From NCBI RefSeq assembly GCF_000283155.1, contig NW_004454216.1, positions 858,626 to 922,625 of the forward strand: 64,000 bases of DNA. The letters run 5' to 3'. The notes beneath the pieces are model-generated. The model saw only the letters and a program-made list of their open reading frames with translations. It searched no databases and had not been told where the DNA came from. Source of the DNA: Ceratotherium simum simum. Its lineage: Eukaryota; Chordata; Mammalia; Perissodactyla; Rhinocerotidae. Positions within the stretch are counted from its first letter, which is position 1, and the number at the start of each line of letters is the position of its first letter. The position numbers were made by a program, and so were the translations under genes. Below are positions 7,640-61,487 of this stretch, one piece after another.

Positions 7640-7745
7640 TTAATATCCTGAAATCTAATTTATTCATTCATAAAATGGAGGTCCTAATAACCCATAGGTT
7701 TGTGTGAGAATCAAATGAGATAAAGTAGAGAAAGTGTCTAATATA
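7640..7745 (+). repeat. MIR SINE 3' part
   Basis: CATAAAATGGAGGTCCTAAT followed by TTTGTGTGAGAATCAAATGA fits the second half of MIR. Confidence 0.55.
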
Positions 7746-16110: not shown

Positions 16111-16606
16111 TCCTAGATGATCATCTCATCTTCAAAAATCTGTTTCATCTCTTCCCATGCCAGTTCTTACATTTCTTACTATGTATGGACTCATATTATA
16201 TTAAAACTAATGGTGATAGTGATTTAACCTTTAAATTTTGACTGAAAATACCCTTTAGAAAACCCCAGACCTAAAGATTTGAAAGAAAATGTAAGTTTAT
16301 AACCTGCTCCCATTAAAAGTGAATGACCCTTAAAGGCTGTTGACATTCTTAAAAAAATCTAAGATATTTTTGGGAAGATGGGATTGTGGAGTCTCATCGG
16401 TCGTCTAAGAGACAAAGAGGGCCTCTCCTCAGGGAGAGTTGTGGGGCTGATTGTAAAGTCCTGAGCTATACTTTTAAAAAAGTTTAGTTTTCACATTTCC
16501 ATGGAAATCAAAGTGACACCAAGCCAGAAATTTGGGTTAAGAAGCAGAAAAAAGAAAGAAAAGAGGCATATACAAGAGGCAAGATCCTTTTTCTATATGA
16601 TCTGGT
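16111..16606. other. Intergenic sequence 3' of ARGFX
   Basis: No gene or repeat is recognised. On the minus strand an AATAAA lies at 16613-16608, 11 bases after the ancestral ARGFX stop, and could be its old poly(A) signal. Confidence 0.4.
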
Positions 16607-16623
16607 ATTTATTAGCACTTTAA

Positions 16624-17205
16624 TCAATGAAATCCAAAGTCCACCATGCTGGAGGGGTTCTGGAATTCCAGACTGTCTCTTTAGACTGTAGGCTGCAAAG
16701 CCCCAGCTTGTCATACTGGACCAGGTTTGCCCAGGAGATAGACCTAAAGCCAGACCAGCAAAGACGTTAAGAGAGGAACTCTGTTCTTCTAGCTGGGGCC
16801 TTGTGGGTGAGAGATACTGATATAGACAGTGAAAAGAAGATCTGGATATCTCATCCTCATCAGGAAAACTATATAGTTTTATGATTTGGGCTATGTCATA
16901 GGCATCCGAGTACAAGGCAGGAACTGAGGCCACTAGCCTCTCCAACTGAGGATCTTGCATTTGGACATCACTTGTGGGACTCTCAGTGATGACAGAGTCC
17001 CATGCCCAATTAGAAGGCCTAAGGGCTGAGGTGGAAGGGAGCTATAGAAATCTGAAACTGCAGGAAAAAAAGAATGAGGCCTGGTTGGTGCTGTGGGTGA
17101 GTGGGGCATATTCTTGCCTGGAAGGATCTGGTATGGTTGATTTAGTGATTGCTCTTATTGCCGCTGCTGCTTCCTCAATTTGAACCGCCGGTTCTTGAAC
17201 CAAGT
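16624..17205 (-). pseudogene. ARGFX: ARGFX last exon: end of homeodomain plus broken tail
   Basis: The exon starts at 17205 after acceptor CTCTCAG, with TWFKNRRFKLRKQQRQ (recognition helix: W48, F49, K50, N51, R53 of the homeodomain). A TAA at 17157-17155 then ends the frame directly after the homeodomain. Beyond it, similarity to the ARGFX tail continues in shifted frames: SDFYSSLPPQPL, a one-base loss near 17016-17025, then LERLVASVPALYSDAYDIAQ and FHCLYQYLSP, a one-base gain near 16677-16684, then the last residues and an ancestral stop at 16626-16624. One nonsense and two frameshifts argue for a pseudogene. Comparison is with the human protein as recalled. Confidence 0.85.
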
Positions 17206-17973
17206 CTGAGAGTGGGAGAAGAGTGGAGATTATGGTTTGTTAATGGAGAAGGAGTTTGAGGCTTCTGCTGGGTGAAAAAAGCCAGATGATAACCCTCATG
17301 TCCTCTCCAAGTCACCCAGACACTGAGTTCTGAGAGCACAGAGGTGGGCATGAGTGGAGTCAATAGGAGGAACAGCGAGGGATCAGAACGGGGACCCCAG
17401 AGATGGAAGAAGGAAAGAAAGGGGGTATGTTTCAGAGGTTGTGCTGGAGGTTCAGAGAAAGGGTCCTGAACTCTAAAGAAGAGAAGCTAGTTCAAGGAAC
17501 TATGGGGAGGTGGGGAATTTGAAGTGAAGGCTTTTCAAGATTATTTTAGAATGGCTCTACAGTGAAAAATACTCCAACAAAAATTTGGGGCCTTAGAAGG
17601 CTCAGAGGTTGGGGGGAGTTATAATAACAGATTGGAGGGTTTTGCTTGAGAAGACCCTAAATGAGGAGTCTGTTCGGATGACAGTCCTTCCTCTATTTGA
17701 GCTGTATATACAAGACCTCTGGAGTTCTAATTACAGTTACACTGGTTATTACCTCTGTGATGCAGTCACTTTGCCCCTGAATCTTAGTTTTCCTCATCTT
17801 TTAAACTAGACGATAGTAGGGCCAATATATGCCCAGTTCAGTACCAACACACAGTGGGTACTCAATAAATGAAATGTTATTATTATTATTGTGTTATGGA
17901 GGGAATTTCCAGGCTGAATAGTAGAATGTGGTTTGGATGGTGTACCAAGCTCCTCTCAGGGGATTAGATGGAC
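17205..17973 (-). other. ARGFX: ARGFX intron between homeodomain codons 46 and 47
   Basis: The intron sits at the classic PRD-class position. It holds a MIR at about 17700-17900; the remainder shows no recognised feature. Confidence 0.65.
17700..17900 (+). repeat. MIR SINE 3' two-thirds
   Basis: CCTGAATCTTAGTTTTCCTC, then GGGTACTCAATAAATGAAAT with an ATT repeat, fits forward MIR. Confidence 0.6.
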
Positions 17974-18122
17974 CTTTACCGTTGACTGTGGTAGGTTGAG
18001 TTTCAAAGCGAGTTCCTTCTGGAGATTTTTATCTGGAAACATGGTATGGCTAAACAGAGCCTCCAACTCTTCATGCTGTATGTGGGTGAATGAGGTGCAT
18101 TCTTGATGCTTCTTCCATATCG
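17974..18122 (-). pseudogene. ARGFX: ARGFX homeodomain exon
   Basis: The acceptor CTCTACAG precedes 18122. The 149-bp exon (entered in phase 1) reads IWKKHQECTSFTHIQHEEL, then EALFSHTMFPDKNLQKELAL and KLNLPQSTVK, covering helices 1 and 2 and the start of helix 3 of a PRD-type homeodomain. There are no stops. Cys replaces Arg5. The exon ends in phase 0 at the conserved 46/47 intron if GTCCAT is the donor; a stronger but out-of-register donor, GTAAAG, lies 6 bases earlier. Confidence 0.85.
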
Positions 18123-18688
18123 CTGTAGAGCAGAGATGGAGAGGGAGTGGTTACACTAACACTACCCTCTCCCCCAAACACCACAGCTGTGAACCTCCCA
18201 TGACTTTCTTCCAATCAGGCTTGGAATCGAGGAGTGATAGATCCCAGGTCTTGACTCCAGGAGGCTAAGTCCTATGTAACAGTGCTCTGTCTTCTGTTTT
18301 CTGAGATTTAGTTTGTCCCCCCCAGGAAATGTTACCACTTTACTTTTCTCTGTACTCAGTCTATTCTCTCTGGAAACTAGCTCCCTTGAGTTTCAGTTTG
18401 CCCTGCACTGAAAACAGAAAATCCTTTTCTCTGGTACTCAGTCTATCTACCTAACCTTAGGACAGTGGACAGTAGCTTCCCTTCTCTCTTTCATGCTTTA
18501 TTTCTTTTAGAAAATAGGAAGAAACCTCATGTTCCTGCACCTGAATATAACACACTCCTCAAAATGAGTTTCCTTTCTTCACTTATTTATTCAGGAACCT
18601 AATCCATTTTTTCTGGAAAATGGATTTTCCAGACTTTCTGAAGCTCTATTCACTCCTCTGGGAAAAGGTTCATAAGACGTGAGACATA
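18123..18688. other. ARGFX: ARGFX intron, pyrimidine-rich
   Basis: No exon or named repeat seen. The region holds repeated short phrases such as CTCAGTCTAT.CTCT at 18355 and CTCAGTCTATCTACCT at 18436. Confidence 0.4.
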
Positions 18689-18947
18689 GGGGCCAGCCTG
18701 GTGGCATAGTGGTTAAGTTCACGTGCTCTGCTTCAGCGGCCTGAGGTTCTCAGGTTCGCATCCTGGGCGTGGACCTGCACACTGCTCATCAAGCCATGCT
18801 GTGTAGGTGTCCCATATAAATAATAGAGGAAGATGGGCACGGATGTTAGCTGAGGGCCAATCTTCCTCAGCAAAAACAGAGGAAGATTGACAACGGATGT
18901 TAGCTTATGGCCAATCTCCCTCACCAAAAAAAAAAAAAAAAAAAAAG
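18689..18947 (+). repeat. ERE SINE (perissodactyl)
   Basis: Head GGGGCCAGCCTGGTGGCATA and GTGGTTAAGTTC, tRNA-like promoter boxes, then repeated GGAAGAT..GGATGTTAGCT..GGGCCAATCTTCCTC units and poly(A). The 8-bp duplications GAGACATA lie at 18681-18688 and 18948-18955. Confidence 0.95.
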
Positions 18948-18955
18948 GAGACATA

Positions 18956-19200
18956 ACTAAATATGTGGAGATGATTGAAAAATTATAGATTATTTTTTAA
19001 AATGGCAATGTAGAGAAATAAGAAATTTTCCAAGAAAATACAATTACCAAAATTTGCTAAAAAAGAACTGCAGACCCTGAATAGACTAATAATCACACAA
19101 GAACATACGTAGGTTATAGAACTCAAGGCAATGCTGTGTTAATTTTCCTGTTATATGCCCATTTCAGTAAAAGGAGGAAGGGTCTTTTCCCCATTTACCC
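18956..19200. other. ARGFX: ARGFX intron, no feature
   Basis: AT-rich sequence without recognised exon or repeat. Confidence 0.4.
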
Positions 19201-20140
19201 ACCATATTGGACCACAATATTTCCGAGATATTGTGATTTATAATAAATATATATATATTTTGGTCTTTATCCATGATCCTTGGCTCACAGCTCTCAAAAC
19301 CCTTGGAATTTCCTAAGAGGTAAGAGCAATGGGAGCATCTTTTGTCATAATATTTGTTCTCTTGTCCTCAGTTCCTGAAATTGCTTCAGAGCCATAAAGA
19401 TGAAATAGGTGTCTTGTAATTCATAACAAGCCCCTTTCCACCACAGCTGGGTTTATGTTAACAACATGACTTTTGGAAATCTCCTAAAGATTGGGGACTA
19501 ATTGCCAGAGGAACCAACCCTGATGAGAGAGTTGGAACTTTCAGTCCCATCCTCTGATATTTGGGGAAGGAAGTGGGGCTGGAGCAGTTGAGTCAATCAT
19601 CAGCAGGCAATGATTTAATCAATCATGCCTATGTAATGAAGCTGCCGTAAAAACCCAAAAGGAGGGGTTTCAGGGAGCTTCTAGGTTGGTGAACCAGAAT
19701 GCATCCACGTGGCACCATGCTTGGCCCCACATTTCTCATGGAAAGAAGCTCCTTTGTTCAGGCCCTTACCCTTTGTATCTCTTCATCTGGTTGTTGATTC
19801 GTATCCTTTAATATCCTTTGTAATAAGCTGGTAATCTAGTGAGTAAACTGGATTCCTGAATTCTGTGAGCCACTCTAGAAAATTAATTGAACCCAAGGAG
19901 GGGGTTGTGGGAACCTCTGATTTATAGCCAGTCCATCGTAAGCACAGGTGACAACCTGGACTTGTGATTGGCATCTGAAGTGGGGGCAGTCTTGTAGGAC
20001 TGAGACCTTAACCTGTGGAATCTGATGCTATCTCCAGGTGCATAGTGTCATAATTGAGCTGAATTGTAGGACATTCAGCTGATGTTGGAGAACTGCTTGG
20101 TGTGGGGAAAAAACCCACGTATCGAAATTGGTGTCAGAAT
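19200..20140 (+). repeat. Old endogenous-retrovirus LTR-like repeat
   Basis: A long segment with the recurrent vocabulary of a mammalian solo LTR: CAATCATGCCTATGTAATGA, TAATAAGCTGGTAATCTAG, AATTGAACCCAAGGAGGGGG and GGCATCTGAAGTGGGGGCAG. No internal viral coding sequence is present. Exact boundaries and family are not determined. Confidence 0.6.
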
Positions 20141-20466
20141 TGTATCCCACCTTGGAAAATGGGCTTTCTGTATTCCTCTCTGCCTATGCTTCAGTCCTTT
20201 CCTCCTAGAAAAACATTCTTACTTGTGCTACATTTTGCGTTCTCAGCTTGTCTGTAATAATTTGGTCAAGCATGGGCCAAAGGCATTTGACTTTGACATG
20301 AAATTTATAACTTCGTCTTTTATGATGAGAACATTTTTTGAATAGATTTTTTAAAGAAGATATAACAATCAATAACTGCTTTAAAACAAATGCAAAATAC
20401 AATTATAGGGCCCCATGAGAAGAGGGTAACGGTGGAGGAGGGAGGGCACAGGAGAGTTATACTCAC

Positions 20467-20563
20467 TGGGATCAGCTGGAGCCTGTGGTATCAAGTTCAT
20501 GCTGGAATCATCCATGTTGATAAACAGGTCTGGCTGGGGATTCTCTGGGGTCATTCTGTTCAT
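20467..20563 (-). pseudogene. ARGFX: ARGFX first coding exon (copy A)
   Basis: ATG at 20563-20561 opens 32 codons (MNRMTPENPQPDLFINMDDS, then SMNLIPQAPADP) that match the N-terminus of human ARGFX as recalled, followed by donor CCCA|GTGAGT. The exon ends in phase 1, which joins in frame to the homeodomain exon at 18122. A human middle segment that looks Alu-derived has no counterpart here. Confidence 0.82.
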
Positions 20564-20599
20564 CAGGGGTTCTGAAATCTGAGATGGAAAGCCTATGAG

Positions 20600-22440: not shown

Positions 22441-22605
22441 CCTCTCAAACTTTAATAAGTATACAAATCACCTAGGGATCTTGTTAAAATGCAGATTCTG
22501 ATTCAGTAGGTCTGGGGTAAGGCTTGAGATCCTGCAGCTCTAACAAGCTCCCAGGTGATGCTGATATTACTGATCTGCAAGTAAGACTTAGAGTAACAAG
22601 GCTTT
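22441..22605 (+). repeat. MER5-type hAT element
   Basis: CTCAAACTTTAATAAGTATA, GATCTTGTTAAAATGCAGAT, TCAGTAGGTCTGGGGTAAGG and CTAACAAGCTCCCAGGTGAT form the classic body of a short hAT-Charlie element. Confidence 0.8.
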
Positions 22606-31622: not shown

Positions 31623-34158
<2,536 letters not shown>

Positions 34159-35285: not shown

Positions 35286-35298
35286 AGAACTTCTTTGA
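35286..35298 (+). repeat. Target-site duplication, left (NUMB retrocopy)
   Basis: AGAACTTCTTTGA. The bases before it (CTGTT|AGAA) fit the L1 endonuclease preference TT|AAAA. Confidence 0.95.
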
Positions 35299-35470
35299 GA
35301 GAGGCAGTGGCGCTAGAGTTAGTGGCGGGCAGCGGCAGATTTGAGGCTTAAGCAACTTCTTCCAGGAAGGAGAGCCAGTGCAGCTGCTGTTACAACCCCA
35401 AGGTGTTGATCCACTTCCATAGATTGGAATATTGGTGGGCGAGCAGCCATCCTCAGACACCTCACTTAGG

Positions 35471-35562
35471 GCAGATGAGGAAACTGAGGCTTGCTGAAGT
35501 TACGAAACTTGTCCAAAGTCACACAGCTTGTAAAGGGCACAGCCAAGATTCAGAGCCAGGTT
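35471..35562 (-). repeat. MIR segment inside the NUMB leader
   Basis: GCAGATGAGGAAACTGAGGC, then AGTCACACAGCTTGTAAAGG and GATTCAGAGCCAGGTT match antisense MIR. It lies inside the retrocopy, so it came with the parent mRNA: the NUMB leader of this lineage includes an exonised MIR. An in-frame TGA at 35485-35487 separates it from any longer frame. Confidence 0.7.
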
Positions 35563-35574
35563 GTGAAAATTAAA

Positions 35575-37269
35575 ATGAACAAACTACGGCAAAGTTTTAG
35601 GAGAAAGAAAGATGTTTATGTTCCAGAAGCCAGTCGTCCACATCAGTGGCAGACAGATGAAGAAGGGGTTCGTACTGGAAAATGTAGCTTCCCAGTTAAG
35701 TATCTTGGCCACGTAGAAGTTGATGAATCAAGAGGAATGCACATTTGTGAAGATGCTGTAAAGAGATTGAAAGCTGAAAGGAAGTTCTTCAAAGGCTTCT
35801 TTGGAAAAACTGGAAAGAAAGCAGTTAAGGCAGTCCTCTGGGTATCAGCAGACGGACTCAGAGTGGTGGATGAAAAAACTAAGGACCTCATAGTTGACCA
35901 GACAATAGAAAAAGTGTCTTTCTGTGCCCCAGATAGGAACTTTGATAGAGCTTTCTCTTACATATGTCGTGATGGCACCACTCGGCGCTGGATCTGTCAT
36001 TGCTTCATGGCTGTCAAGGACACGGGTGAAAGATTGAGCCATGCGGTAGGCTGTGCTTTTGCGGCCTGTTTAGAACGTAAGCAGAAGCGGGAGAAGGAAT
36101 GTGGAGTAACTGCTACTTTTGATGCCAGTCGAACCACTTTTACTAGAGAAGGATCATTGCGTGTCACAACAGCCACCGAGCAAGCCGAAAGAGAGGAGAT
36201 TATGAAACAAATCCAAGATGCCAAGAAAGATAAGACAGTTGTTGGTTCATCAGTGGCCCCTGGCAACACTGCCTCATCCCCGTCGTCTCCCACCTCTCCC
36301 ACTTCGGATGCCACTGCCTCTCTGGAGATGAACAATCCTCATGCCATCCCACGTCGACACGCACCGATTGAACAACTTGCTCGCCAAGGCTCTTTCCGAG
36401 GATTTCCTGCTCTTAGCCAGAAGATGTCACCCTTTAAACGCCAACTATCCCTGCGCATCAACGAGTTGCCTTCCACTATGCAGGGGAAGACTGATTTCCC
36501 CATAAAAAATGCAGTGCCAGAGGTAGAAGGGGAAGCAGAGAGTATCAGCTCCCTGTGCTCACAGATCACCAATGCCTTCAGCACACCCTCCGAGGATCCC
36601 TTCTCATCCGCTCCAATGATCAAACCAGTGACAGTTGTGGCACCACAATCTCCTGCCTTTCAAGCTAATGGCACTGACTCAGCCTTCCATGTGCTTGCTG
36701 CTAAGCCAGCCCATACTGCTCTAGCACCCGTAGCAATGCCTGTGCATGAAACCAACCCTTGGGCCCATGCCCCTGATGCTGCTAACAAGGAAATTGCAGC
36801 CACACGTTCGGGGACTGAGTGGGGTCAATCTTCTGGTGCTGCCTCTCCAGGTCCCTTCCAGGCTGGTCATAGACGAACTCCCTCTGAGGCCGACCGCTGG
36901 TTAGAGGAAGTATCCAAGAGCGTCCGAGCTCAGCAGCCCCAGGCCTCAGCTGCTCCTCTGCAGCCAGTTCTCCAGCCGCCTCCACCCACAGCCATCTCCC
37001 AGCCAGTGCCACCTTTCCAAGGGAATGCATTCCTCACCTCTCAGCCTGTGCCAGTGGGTGTGGTCCCACCCTTGCAGCCAGCCTTTGTCCCTGCCCAGTC
37101 CTATCCTGTGGCCAATGGGATGCCCTATCCAGCCCCAAATGTGCCTGTGGTGGGCGTCACTCCCTCCCAGATGGTAGCCAACGTGTTTGGCACTGCAGGC
37201 CACCCTCAGGCTGCCCAACCCCCATCCGTCTCCCAGCCTGGTCAAGCAACAGACATTCCCTCAGTATGA
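35575..37269 (+). CDS. NUMB retrocopy open frame, 564 codons (PTB intact, C-tail lost)
   Basis: ATG at 35575 ([15 protein letters not shown]) opens 564 codons without a stop. Residues ~30-175 are the PTB domain, with the insert [11 protein letters not shown] at 68-78. Then come the basic and serine-rich linker ([26 protein letters not shown]) and the proline-rich segment ([27 protein letters not shown]). Compared with recalled human NUMB there is a three-residue deletion (KKDKTVVG for KKAETDK-VVG) and single-residue insertions near STPSEDPF and HVLAAKPA. The frame leaves the NUMB sequence near residue 548, where one extra base in GCCCAACCCCCAT shifts it to a stop 20 codons later. The product would keep membrane and NPXY-type cargo binding but lack the AP2 and EH-domain motifs. 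Confidence 0.85.
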
Positions 37270-37528
37270 AACAAGCAGTGCTACTGCCAGTCCCTTCTTT
37301 AAGCCTCCTGCTCAGCACCTCAACGGTTCTGCCGCTTTCAATGGTGTAGATGATGGCAGGTTGGCTTCAGGAGACAAGCACACAGAGGTTCCTGCAGGCA
37401 CCTGCCTGGTGGATCCTTTCGAAGCCCAGTGGGCTGCATTAGAAAGCAAGTCCAAGCAGCGTACTAACCCCTCCCCCACCAACCCTTTCTCCAGTGACTT
37501 ACAGAAGACGTTTGAAATTGAACTTTAA
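37216..37528 (+). pseudogene. NUMB: NUMB C-terminal tail in the shifted frame
   Basis: After the frameshift the parental reading continues in another frame: [15 protein letters not shown], the DPF motif in CLVDPFEAQW, the NPF motif in SPTNPFSSDLQ, and the ending FEIEL at 37528. The tail is otherwise undamaged, so the single extra base is the only break separating it from the 564-codon frame. Confidence 0.92.
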
Positions 37529-38918
37529 GCAGTCCCTATGGCTTATGCATTTTGTCCATACTTAGGCAAGGGTGGGGGTGGAGGTCAAAGGAGCAAAGGG
37601 GACTTTGTGTTCCCCATCAGTATACTTTTCACTAAGCCCAAAGGTCCCCAAGAAGCAAGTCCAGGCACAGAGTGCAGGGAGGGGTGATTTTGAAAAAAGT
37701 GGAAAAAAACCATTCCTAGAGAAGAGCTGTCTTGCGGTTAGGCTAAAGAAGTCAAGGAAATGTTGCCCTCTGTTCCCCTCCTCCTCCTCAGCCCTTACAA
37801 ATCTCTGGCAACAGAGAGGCAGACATATCTGAACAAGAATCTGTATTCAAAGCACATTTCCTGGAATATAAAACAACGGGAAGCAAAACGATCTCCCTTG
37901 GTGTTTCAGGCCATTCACCTGCCTCCTCTTAGTGCTGGCCTGTCTTAAAGATCAAGAACAGGGTGGCCTATGCTTGGGCTGGGGACAAGAAGCATGCTGT
38001 GCTGCCAGAATTCCCAGGAGGACACATTGGCAGCTGCCCAGCAGAGCTATATTTTAGGGGTAAAGTTGAGCTTCCATTTTGAGTAAGAATATTATAAATA
38101 TATATCAAAAAAGCCAAAATCTTTATTTTTATGCATTTAGAATATTTTAAATAGTTCTCAATATTAAAAAGTTGTATGAGTTGTAAGTAATCTTGCCAAA
38201 GGTAAAAGGGTTAGCTGTAAGAAATTGTACATAAGATTGCTTTATCATCGATGCCTATTGAAGTAAAAAAGAGGAAAGGTTGGAAGTTGCAGACAGGATC
38301 CCTAGCTTATTTGATATCATTCATTGTAAGTAGCACATTGCAACAACAATCATGCTTATGACCAATATAGTCACTAGGTTGTAGTTTTAAATAAAGAAAA
38401 TGAAAGAGCAGTATTGTCCTGGTTTTAAACCTATGATGAAATTCTAATGTCATTATTTTAATGGAATCAATCTAAATATGCTCTACAGAGAATATGTACT
38501 TTTTTATATATTGCTGTTTCCTTATGTTAATCCTTTGTTTGTTGTAACACTAAGGGACAATGACATAATCATATCCATAGACGGCAATGCAGGTTACTGT
38601 GTTGGTTTGTCATGTGGGTCTTGGTGGGTTTTGTTTTGTCCTTTAAGTTTTGTTCCCATGAGTTTTGTGGGGATGGAGATTCTGGTTTTATTAGCTATGT
38701 GTGTGTGTCTGTGTGTCCTTCCCCTCCCCGTGGTGAACAGAACATCCCATTGCCAGTTGCAGTCACTGGACCTCTGGTAACAATGTGAGATCCCATCTCA
38801 TTTTTACTTTTGAACGTTGGCCTTATAATCAAATGTAAGTTATATATATTTGTACTGATGAGAATTTATAATCTGCTTTAACAAAAATAAATGTTCATGG
38901 TAGGAAAAAAAAAAAAAA
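37529..38918 (+). other. NUMB retrocopy 3' UTR with poly(A) signal and tail
   Basis: AT-rich 3' UTR ending in AATAAA (38886-38891), then 15 A residues to about 38918. It lies in sense orientation within POLQ, so it is a possible internal polyadenylation site for POLQ transcripts. Confidence 0.88.
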
Positions 38919-38931
38919 AGAACTTCTTTGA
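38919..38931 (+). repeat. Target-site duplication, right (NUMB retrocopy)
   Basis: AGAACTTCTTTGA, identical to 35286-35298, directly after the poly(A). Confidence 0.95.
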
Positions 38932-39193: not shown

Positions 39194-41142
<1,949 letters not shown>

Positions 41143-53176: not shown

Positions 53177-53577
53177 TTTTTTTTTTTTTAGTTTTTTGTT
53201 TATTGCAGTAACATTGGTTTATAACATTGTATAAATTTCAGGTATACATCATTATACTTCTATTTCTGCATAGATTACATCATGTTCACCACACAAATAC
53301 TAATTACAACCCATCACCACACACATGTGCCGAATTACCCCTTTCGCCCTCCTCCCTCCCCCCTTCCCCTCTGGTAACCACCAGTCCAATCTCTGCCCCT
53401 ATGTGTTTGTTTATTGTTGTTATTATCTACTACTTAATGAAGGAAATCATATGGTATTTGACCTTGTCCCTCTGACTTATTTCACTTTGCATAATACCCT
53501 CAATGTCCATCCATGTTGTCACAAATGGCTGGATTTCATTGTTTCTTATGGCTGAGTAGTATTCCATTGTGTATATA
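53177..53577 (-). repeat. L1 3' end, 5'-truncated (antisense)
   Basis: Poly(T) at 53177-53189, then antisense L1 3' UTR and ORF2 end (GCAGTAACATTGGTTTATAA, CTGAGTAGTATTCCATTGTG). Perfect 12-bp duplications TAAGCCCTAAAA lie at 53165-53176 and 53578-53589. It shares the 3' end of the element at 59297-61487, so it is of the same subfamily. Confidence 0.95.
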
Positions 53578-53589
53578 TAAGCCCTAAAA

Positions 53590-59296: not shown

Positions 59297-61487
59297 GTGG
59301 GGAGTGAGGTAAGCAAGATGGCGGAATAGGAGGTCCCTAGCTCTAGTCCTCATTACAATACAGATTAGCAACTATTCACAGACAAGAATGCCTTTTTAAA
59401 AATCCCAGAACCTGGTGTTGAGGTTGAAAAACTTTCTTGGAGCACAAAAACTGAGAAAAGCCACATTAGAAGGCTAAGAGCAGTGGTTTTACTTTGACTG
59501 CATTGCCCCTCCCCCAAGCTGGCACAGTGCCACACTGAGAGGGATCCCCTGGGCCTACAGTTTCTTCAGTAGGGAAAAGAGAGCCCGAGGTGGACATCCA
59601 GCCTCCCTAGCATTCCCCAGGAAGCCCACTTCTGTCTCGCCTCATGGGAACACTGGGGGAATTGGCAAGGCTGGAACACCTGAGACCTACTAGGAACAGA
59701 TAACGGGGGTGGGGCTCATTGATTAGTGTGTTGATCCTCGTGGTGGCACTATATCCCTCCCAGCCGCCTCAGATCAGAGAGCCCAGCAAGTAGCTCCACC
59801 CACGCATGGCACCAGATTGACGGCCCCATCTGGCCAGGAAGCAGGGTGAGCAGATCTCAGCCTGCAGCCCTGCCAGACCAGGGAGCCTGACTGTGACACA
59901 TCCTGGAGTACTGCATGATAACAGACCTCATCCTGTGGCCCCACCCAAGGGAGGACAGCTTCTGGCCACACCTGAACGTGGAGTCCAACTAATAGCACCA
60001 CCTAGTCAGGGAGTATTGTGGTCCTGCCTGACCAGAGAGCCCAGGCAGTGGCCCCACCCAACTGGAGAGCTCAGCCAGTGAACCTGCCTGACTGTGGAGC
60101 TCAGCCAATGGCCACGCCTATCCACGGAGCCCAGCTAGCAGTCCCACCTGACCAAGCAGCCCTGGCAGCAGTCTTGCCTGAAGGCAGAGCTGAGCCAGTG
60201 GCCCCACCCAACCAAGGACCCTGGCAGCAAGCCCTACCTGCCCTTCTGTGGACTCTACCAGCTGGCCCTTGGAAAACCCCAGGCTGGGCTGACTATGGAG
60301 GTCTTTCCCTACCGAAGCAAACCTGTAAGGACTGGAACAGGTGACCACTTCCTCAGATGCACAGACATCAATGCAAGGATACAAGAATAATGAAGAGTCA
60401 GGGCAACTAAGAATTTAGGATAATCCGCTTAATGAGTTCAGTGAACTACAGGAAAACACAGGTAGGCAATTAAACAATATTAGGAAAACAATCCATGAAC
60501 AGAATGAGAAGTTTAACAAAGAAATAGAAACCATTAAACAAACAAACAGAAATCTCACAGCTGAAGAATACGACTGATCTGAAAAATTCAATAGAAAGCT
60601 TCAAAAGCAGACTCAGTCAAGCAGAAGAATCAGTGAACTCAAAGTTAGGTCATTTGAAATTATACATTCAGAGCAACAAAAATAAAAGAATGAAAAAGAG
60701 TCAAAAAAGCCTCCAAGACTGAGGAGACACTGTCAAGCAAAATAATATATGCGTTATTGAAGTCCAAGATGGAGAAGAGAGAGAAAATGGCAGAAAGTCT
60801 ATTTAAAGAAATATTGGCTAAAAACATCCCAAATATGGGGAGAGATATGGACATCTAGGTACATGAAGCTAAACAGATACAGTTCAGAGAGGACTTCACC
60901 CAGACACATTATATTATCAAATTGTCAAAAATCAAAGAATCAAGTTCTTTGGATAAATACCCAACACCAATTTGCAAAGGTACATGCACCCCTGTGTTCA
61001 TTGCAGCATTATTCACAATAGCCAAGATTTGGAAGCAACCTAAGTGCCCATCAAGGGATGAATGGATAAAGAAGCTGTGGTATATATACACAATGGAATA
61101 CTACTCAGCCATAAAAAACGATGAAATCCAGCCATTTGTGACAACATGGATGGACATTGAGGGTATAATGCAAAGTGAAATAAGTCAGAGGGAGAAGGTC
61201 AAATACCGTATGATTTCCTTCATTAAGTAGTAGATAATAACAACAATAAACAAACACATAGGGACAGAGATTGGATTGGTGGTTACCAGAGGGGAAGGGG
61301 GGAGGGAGGAGGGTGAAAGGGATAATTTGGTACATGTGTGTGTGGTGATGGGTTGTAATTAGTATTTTGGTGGTGAACATGATGTAATCTATGCAGAAGT
61401 AGAAGTATAATGATGTACACCTGAAATTTTTACAATGTTATAAACCAATGTTACTGCAATAAACAAAAAATTAAAAAAAAAAAAAAG
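59297..61487 (+). mobile_element. Internally deleted L1 (5' UTR, ORF1 part, 3' end)
   Basis: A 2.2-kb L1 in sense with POLQ. It starts GGGAGTGAGGTAAGCAAGAT-GGCGG, an L1 5' UTR start, followed by a GC-rich repeat region (60000-60245) and an ORF1-like coiled-coil segment from about 60420 (frame broken). Near 60940 the text jumps to the end of ORF2 (GGATAAATACCCAACACCAA), then the 3' UTR and poly(A) to 61487. About 4 kb of a full L1 is missing between. Stops are frequent, so it is inactive. No clear duplications were found. Confidence 0.75.
60000..60245 (+). repeat. Degenerate ~30-bp tandem repeats in L1 leader
   Basis: About seven units of the form GAGCCCAGCAGTGGCCCCAC-CCAACC.., varying from 28 to 32 bases. 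Both strands carry open frames (up to 108 codons) because the unit lacks stops; these are not genes. Confidence 0.8.

Follow-up and report, generated by a model that had tools for sequence, protein, structure and literature searches.

A full-length, intronless copy of the spliced NUMB p72 mRNA was identified in intron 3 of POLQ in the white rhinoceros (Ceratotherium simum simum); it is very probably an ordinary young processed pseudogene that is neutral or nearly so. The copy lies on the forward strand of the 64,000 nucleotide stretch of contig NW_004454216.1 which was analysed here (positions 858,626 to 922,625; hereafter the window, from the first letter of which positions are counted), and it includes exons 3 (the PTB insert) and 9, both alternative, as in the p72 isoform (see Table 1 for coordinates).

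The copy is flanked by a target-site duplication (TSD), the two arms of which are identical at 13 of 13 positions, and it ends in an A-run (38905-38919) comprising 14 A residues plus a final A shared with the TSD, with an AATAAA hexamer ahead of it at position 38886. LINE-1 TSDs are approximately 7-20 bp in length and the LINE-1 endonuclease consensus is TT/AAAA; the insertion junction (GCTGTT/AGAACT, i.e. TT/AGAA) shows one mismatch to this site. Ten exon blocks which are separate at the parental gene, with AG/GT borders, are fused in the copy without remnant. Four features by which LINE-1 processed retrocopies are recognised were found, namely precisely absent introns, a poly(A) tract after its signal, a TSD and an endonuclease-like target, and the full-length retrocopy proposed in the preliminary description, which had been made from the letters of the window, was confirmed on these grounds. 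The p72 isoform has been suggested to be the most abundant NUMB isoform in ES and iPS cells (PMC11889595, in extract), which is compatible with a germline source.

One stretch of the 5'UTR (35475-35559) resembles a MIR repeat, and this part also matches another place (L009) at 74% identity. A 32 amino acid upstream ORF begins in the MIR-like stretch and ends just before the NUMB ATG. The MIR-like piece is perhaps a repeat that was exonised in the parental mRNA.

Table 1. Features of the NUMB retrocopy and the neighbouring POLQ exons (window positions)
Feature	Position	Strand	Evidence or remark
POLQ exon 3 (start approximate; donor GTAATG)	34012..34143	+	
5' TSD AGAACTTCTTTGA	35286..35298	+	Repeat identity; LINE-1-like junction
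NUMB p72 retrocopy, spliced mRNA and poly(A)	35299..38918	+	Parental exon alignment
NUMB 5'UTR	35299..35574	+	Two parental 5'UTR exons aligned
Open frame, 564 aa, frame-shifted tail	35575..37269	+	ORF listing
PTB/PID domain, aa 39-171	35689..36087	+	Pfam; PDB identity
Exon 3, PTB insert, 11 aa	35776..35808	+	Parental microexon not located
DPF motif 1, aa 341-343, kept in ORF	36595..36603	+	Motif search
Exon 9 (about)	36665..36811	+	Parental exon not located; N-run between neighbours
Five-C run against four in parent (frameshift)	37219..37223	+	Parent alignment
DPF2 (37412) and NPF (37481), past frameshift, outside ORF	37412..37489	+	Motif search
Original NUMB stop codon	37526..37528	+	Parent alignment
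NUMB 3'UTR	37529..38904	+	ATTAAA 38163; AATAAA 38390 and 38886
Poly(A) tail, 14 A plus shared TSD A	38905..38918	+	Letters read
3' TSD	38919..38931	+	Identical to 5' TSD
POLQ exon 4 (acceptor TTTAG)	39194..39350	+	262 bases past insertion

The parental NUMB gene was found on another contig of the same genome (G000:C18). A 626-base coding probe matched five exons there, as well as three weaker places on contig C108 which, at 77-80% identity, are presumably NUMBL. In all, ten parental exon blocks were read, among them two 5'UTR exons that lie upstream of the one with the ATG, at distances of approximately 62 and 98 kb; the nine acceptors and nine donors read at the borders were all AG and GT, respectively. 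No counterpart was located in the readable parental sequence for exons 3 (33 nt) and 9 (about 147 nt), the MIR-like exon of the 5'UTR and the final bases of the 3'UTR. Each of two NUMB probes, one coding and one from the 3'UTR, returned one copy besides the parent, these counts being lower bounds. Runs of N were observed in or near some parental exons (L010 238-314 and 3290-3480, and others on C18); such gaps could arise when short reads are assembled in the presence of a near-identical retrocopy. At one exon the parental gene also has a choice of two acceptors, differing by the residues AET (L010 near 9784 and 7732-7742; G000:C18 approximately 19184784 and 19182740), of which the retrocopy used the downstream one.

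The readable parental NUMB protein was identical to that of C. simum simum (P0089) at 590 of 590 residues and to that of Diceros bicornis (P0097) at 589 of 590, the single difference being T455P, while 11 of 589 residues differed from Equus (P0106). At these 11 positions the copy sides with the rhinoceros parent at nine and with Equus at two (P455 and I474). Fourteen POLQ exon matches were found on the forward strand of the window using human POLQ as the query. When joined, these exons were 99% identical to Diceros bicornis and 94% to Equus asinus, with 10 of 765 residues differing from Diceros, at least one of which is perhaps a join error; the rows compared for the two genes included no white rhinoceros POLQ and no Asian rhinoceros or tapir NUMB. 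An equid origin was considered and rejected on the 11 of 589 parental NUMB differences and on the POLQ identities (94% Equus against 99% Diceros). The placement of the copy in POLQ intron 3, as had been described, was verified by the exon borders on either side. The copy is in the sense orientation relative to POLQ, the GT and AG splice sites of the intron are intact, and the insertion makes up 3633 of the 5050 bases of intron 3.

Over the 3288 bases that could be aligned, copy and parent differ by 25 substitutions (0.76%), distributed as 2/190 in the 5'UTR, 11/1774 in the coding part and 12/1324 in the 3'UTR; the pieces named above as having no located parental counterpart were left out of this count, and the gapped assembly could understate the divergence if retrocopy reads were mixed into parental exons. 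Six indels were observed, five of them in the 3'UTR. Across those parental exons that were readable, the coding part shows a single indel, one additional C in a run in which the parent has four, and the coding sequence from this point to the NUMB stop codon is identical to the parent. The single frame break that had been placed near position 37217 was real and two bases from where it had been put, and the tail beyond it is as undamaged as claimed.

As previously noted, the copy holds a frame of 564 codons from the NUMB ATG with a complete PTB domain (Pfam PID, 1.2e-37, aa 39-171) and, in addition, a NumbF domain; in the ORF listing the same frame extends upstream to a TTG at position 35491. 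Residues 20-175 are identical to human NUMB in PDB entry 5njj (156/156), and an A is present at position -3 of the start codon. Both NUMB DPF motifs bind alpha-adaptin, DPF2 being the widely conserved one, and the NPF motif binds EH proteins (PMC11889595, in extract). The predicted product keeps PTB, exon 3 and DPF1 and loses DPF2 and NPF; the earlier suggestion of a product lacking the AP2- and EH-binding motifs thus stands for DPF2 and NPF, but not for DPF1 (aa 341), which stays in the frame. Among the 120 matches listed of 812 (90% identity clusters may hide members), none had the shifted tail, and none covered more than 67% of the final 45 residues of the ORF. The NUMB tail in the other frame gave no PDB match and no Pfam domain and, as expected, no relatives of the retrocopy protein were confirmed in the viral and bacterial collections.

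Over the 590 codons compared, four silent and seven amino acid differences were observed (dS 0.0093, dN 0.0052, ratio 0.56); a ratio below 1 is expected, since the parent, which is constrained, contributes half of the divergence. One of the seven, T455, is a change on the parental side, as Diceros, Equus and the copy all carry P. The remaining six were assigned to the copy (F195L, R304G, T349I, V474I, A478V and I528V), and at four of these sites (F195, R304, T349 and I528) the residue is invariant across the other 11 rows, from 10 species, of an alignment (A1) chosen from the 120 listed matches. If it arose on the copy, V474I was a CpG transition; however, the rhinoceros V is absent from 8 of these 11 rows, seven of which carry I, and the I may be the old state rather than a change on the copy. 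Two of the same 11 rows also show A478V. The copy has H391 in exon 9, where all seven other rows with exon 9 have R; this site was excluded from the six changes.

Silent and UTR sites (18 differences in 1943 sites) were used as the neutral yardstick, with half of the divergence assigned to the copy. On this basis 6.2 amino acid changes were expected on the copy under neutrality (1340.8 sites) and six were seen, which corresponds to an omega of approximately 1 (95% CI 0.31-2.5), while an omega of 0.2 fitted poorly (upper-tail P = 0.0035). With V474I left out, five changes remained (P = 0.81). The neutral result depends on the assumed half share; when 35% or 65% of the divergence was given to the copy, 4.4 or 8.1 changes were expected and neutrality still fitted, and an omega of 0.5 was excluded only at the 35% share (P = 0.024), fitting at 50% and 65%. 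Strong constraint on the copy is not supported by these counts, and weak constraint (omega 0.5) would be compatible with so few changes. Constraint confined to the PTB domain was also considered and is unsupported: the readable codons 1-193, within which the PTB lies, match the parent completely, but this holds for silent sites as well, and the longest difference-free run (569 bases) is not unusual under random placement (P = 0.21). The expected number of stop codons on the copy is 0.30, and the probability of one disabling change or fewer is 0.12; a single coding indel and the absence of stops agree with the age of the copy, so that the near-intact frame is explained by its youth. Of the two options in the preliminary description, that so intact a copy is either young or partly constrained, the first is upheld by the 0.76% divergence and the second is unsupported, comparison with the parent of the same species giving no sign of purifying selection.

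The insertion is roughly 2-8 million years old. The split between white and black rhinoceroses falls within this range, and the presence of the copy in the black rhinoceros is therefore possible either way. At the rate of 2.2e-8 per site per generation and the generation time of 25 years used in PMC13296254 (in extract), the neutral divergence of 0.93% corresponds to 5.3 million years (counting error, 3.1-8.3) and the all-site divergence of 0.76% to 4.3 million years. With the rate of 2.1e-8 and the generation times of 8 or 25.5 years quoted in PMC11009427 (in extract), ages of 1.5-1.8 or 4.6-5.6 million years are obtained.

In the favoured account, the LINE-1 machinery presumably reverse-transcribed a germline NUMB p72 mRNA and, by target-primed reverse transcription, placed the copy in intron 3 of POLQ in a rhinoceros lineage some 2-8 million years ago; the resulting processed pseudogene has since evolved neutrally or nearly so. 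Passive transcription within the POLQ primary transcript, followed by removal along with intron 3, is probable. A more active role in POLQ expression is conceivable, in which NUMB poly(A) signals in the sense orientation, or cryptic splice sites, would shorten or otherwise change some of the POLQ transcripts: the insertion supplies three poly(A) hexamers (38163, 38390 and 38886) and accounts for most of the intron. Retrocopies, however, omit the element downstream of the cleavage site of the parental mRNA, both splice sites of the intron are intact, and 262 bases separate the insertion from exon 4; such an effect is considered very unlikely. An assembly chimera, with NUMB cDNA or parental sequence misjoined into POLQ, might be suspected from the N-runs in or near some exons of the parental locus, but the copy has a TSD and a tail, and along its length it differs from the parent by both substitutions and indels, which leaves this a negligible probability.

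It is highly unlikely that the copy is a functional retrogene, the 564 amino acid truncated NUMB of which would bind PTB and exon 3 partners and compete with full-length NUMB at endocytic sites. The long frame with its PTB and NumbF domains, the A at position -3 and the loss of DPF2 and NPF would suit such a competitor, and weak constraint is compatible with it. The amino acid changes, on the other hand, have accumulated at the neutral rate, four of them at otherwise invariant residues, DPF1 is retained, and no listed match has the shifted tail; a retrocopied mRNA moreover brings no upstream promoter. Neither purifying selection nor the full parental frame, interrupted here by the extra C, was found. 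A narrower version, rated extremely unlikely, is that the copy, if transcribed in germ cells or the embryo, might yield a p53-stabilising, endocytosis-poor NUMB fragment with the long form of the PTB, in which exon 3 and DPF1 are kept and DPF2 and NPF are gone. Elephants reportedly carry TP53 retrogenes, which would be an analogue in a very large mammal. The p53-stabilising reading is based on the binding and inhibition of MDM2 by exon 3 of human NUMB (PMC6778778, in extract).

Several other elements were observed in the window. Upstream of POLQ, the remains of ARGFX are located at 16600-20570 on the reverse strand with an in-frame stop near 17150, just past the homeodomain part, and the gene looks like a pseudogene in this host. 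An Rfam match to mir-544 (22467-22564, forward strand, 76 bits) is perhaps a repeat, the mir-544 family being linked to a DNA transposon. An inverted pair (53177-53579 and 61081-61485), 95% identical, is LINE-like by eye, and SINEs in the window resemble the ERE family of perissodactyls. No tRNA was found in the window using ARAGORN.

The literature search returned no published description of this NUMB retrocopy. The sole match to NUMB retrocopy or pseudogene literature was a mention of NUMBP1 in a human CNV paper, no paper brought together three of the four subjects rhinoceros, retrocopies, POLQ and NUMB, and Ceratotherium was not mentioned among the retrocopy papers in the matches listed. 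The copy could be useful as a datable insertion marker for rhinoceros phylogeny and population work, and in rhinoceros conservation genomics it may lead to mis-mapped reads and to NUMB variants that are false. Only after comparison with the parent of the same species can a long, near-intact frame be taken as evidence of constraint.

Compared with NUMB p72 itself, the copy shares the PTB domain with exon 3, the NumbF domain, DPF1 and exon 9, but is frame-shifted before DPF2 and NPF, intronless and located inside POLQ. The equid LCORL retrocopies (PMC10249811, in extract, the main text of which names neither NUMB nor POLQ) are likewise perissodactyl, millions of years old and damaged in frame, but are segmentally duplicated and highly expressed, whereas one copy of NUMB was found here. 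The closest likeness is to mammalian LINE-1 processed pseudogenes, which are alike in the spliced copy, poly(A) tail, TSD, dispersed site and lack of any sign of constraint; nothing essential differs, and the NUMB copy is a full-length and young example.
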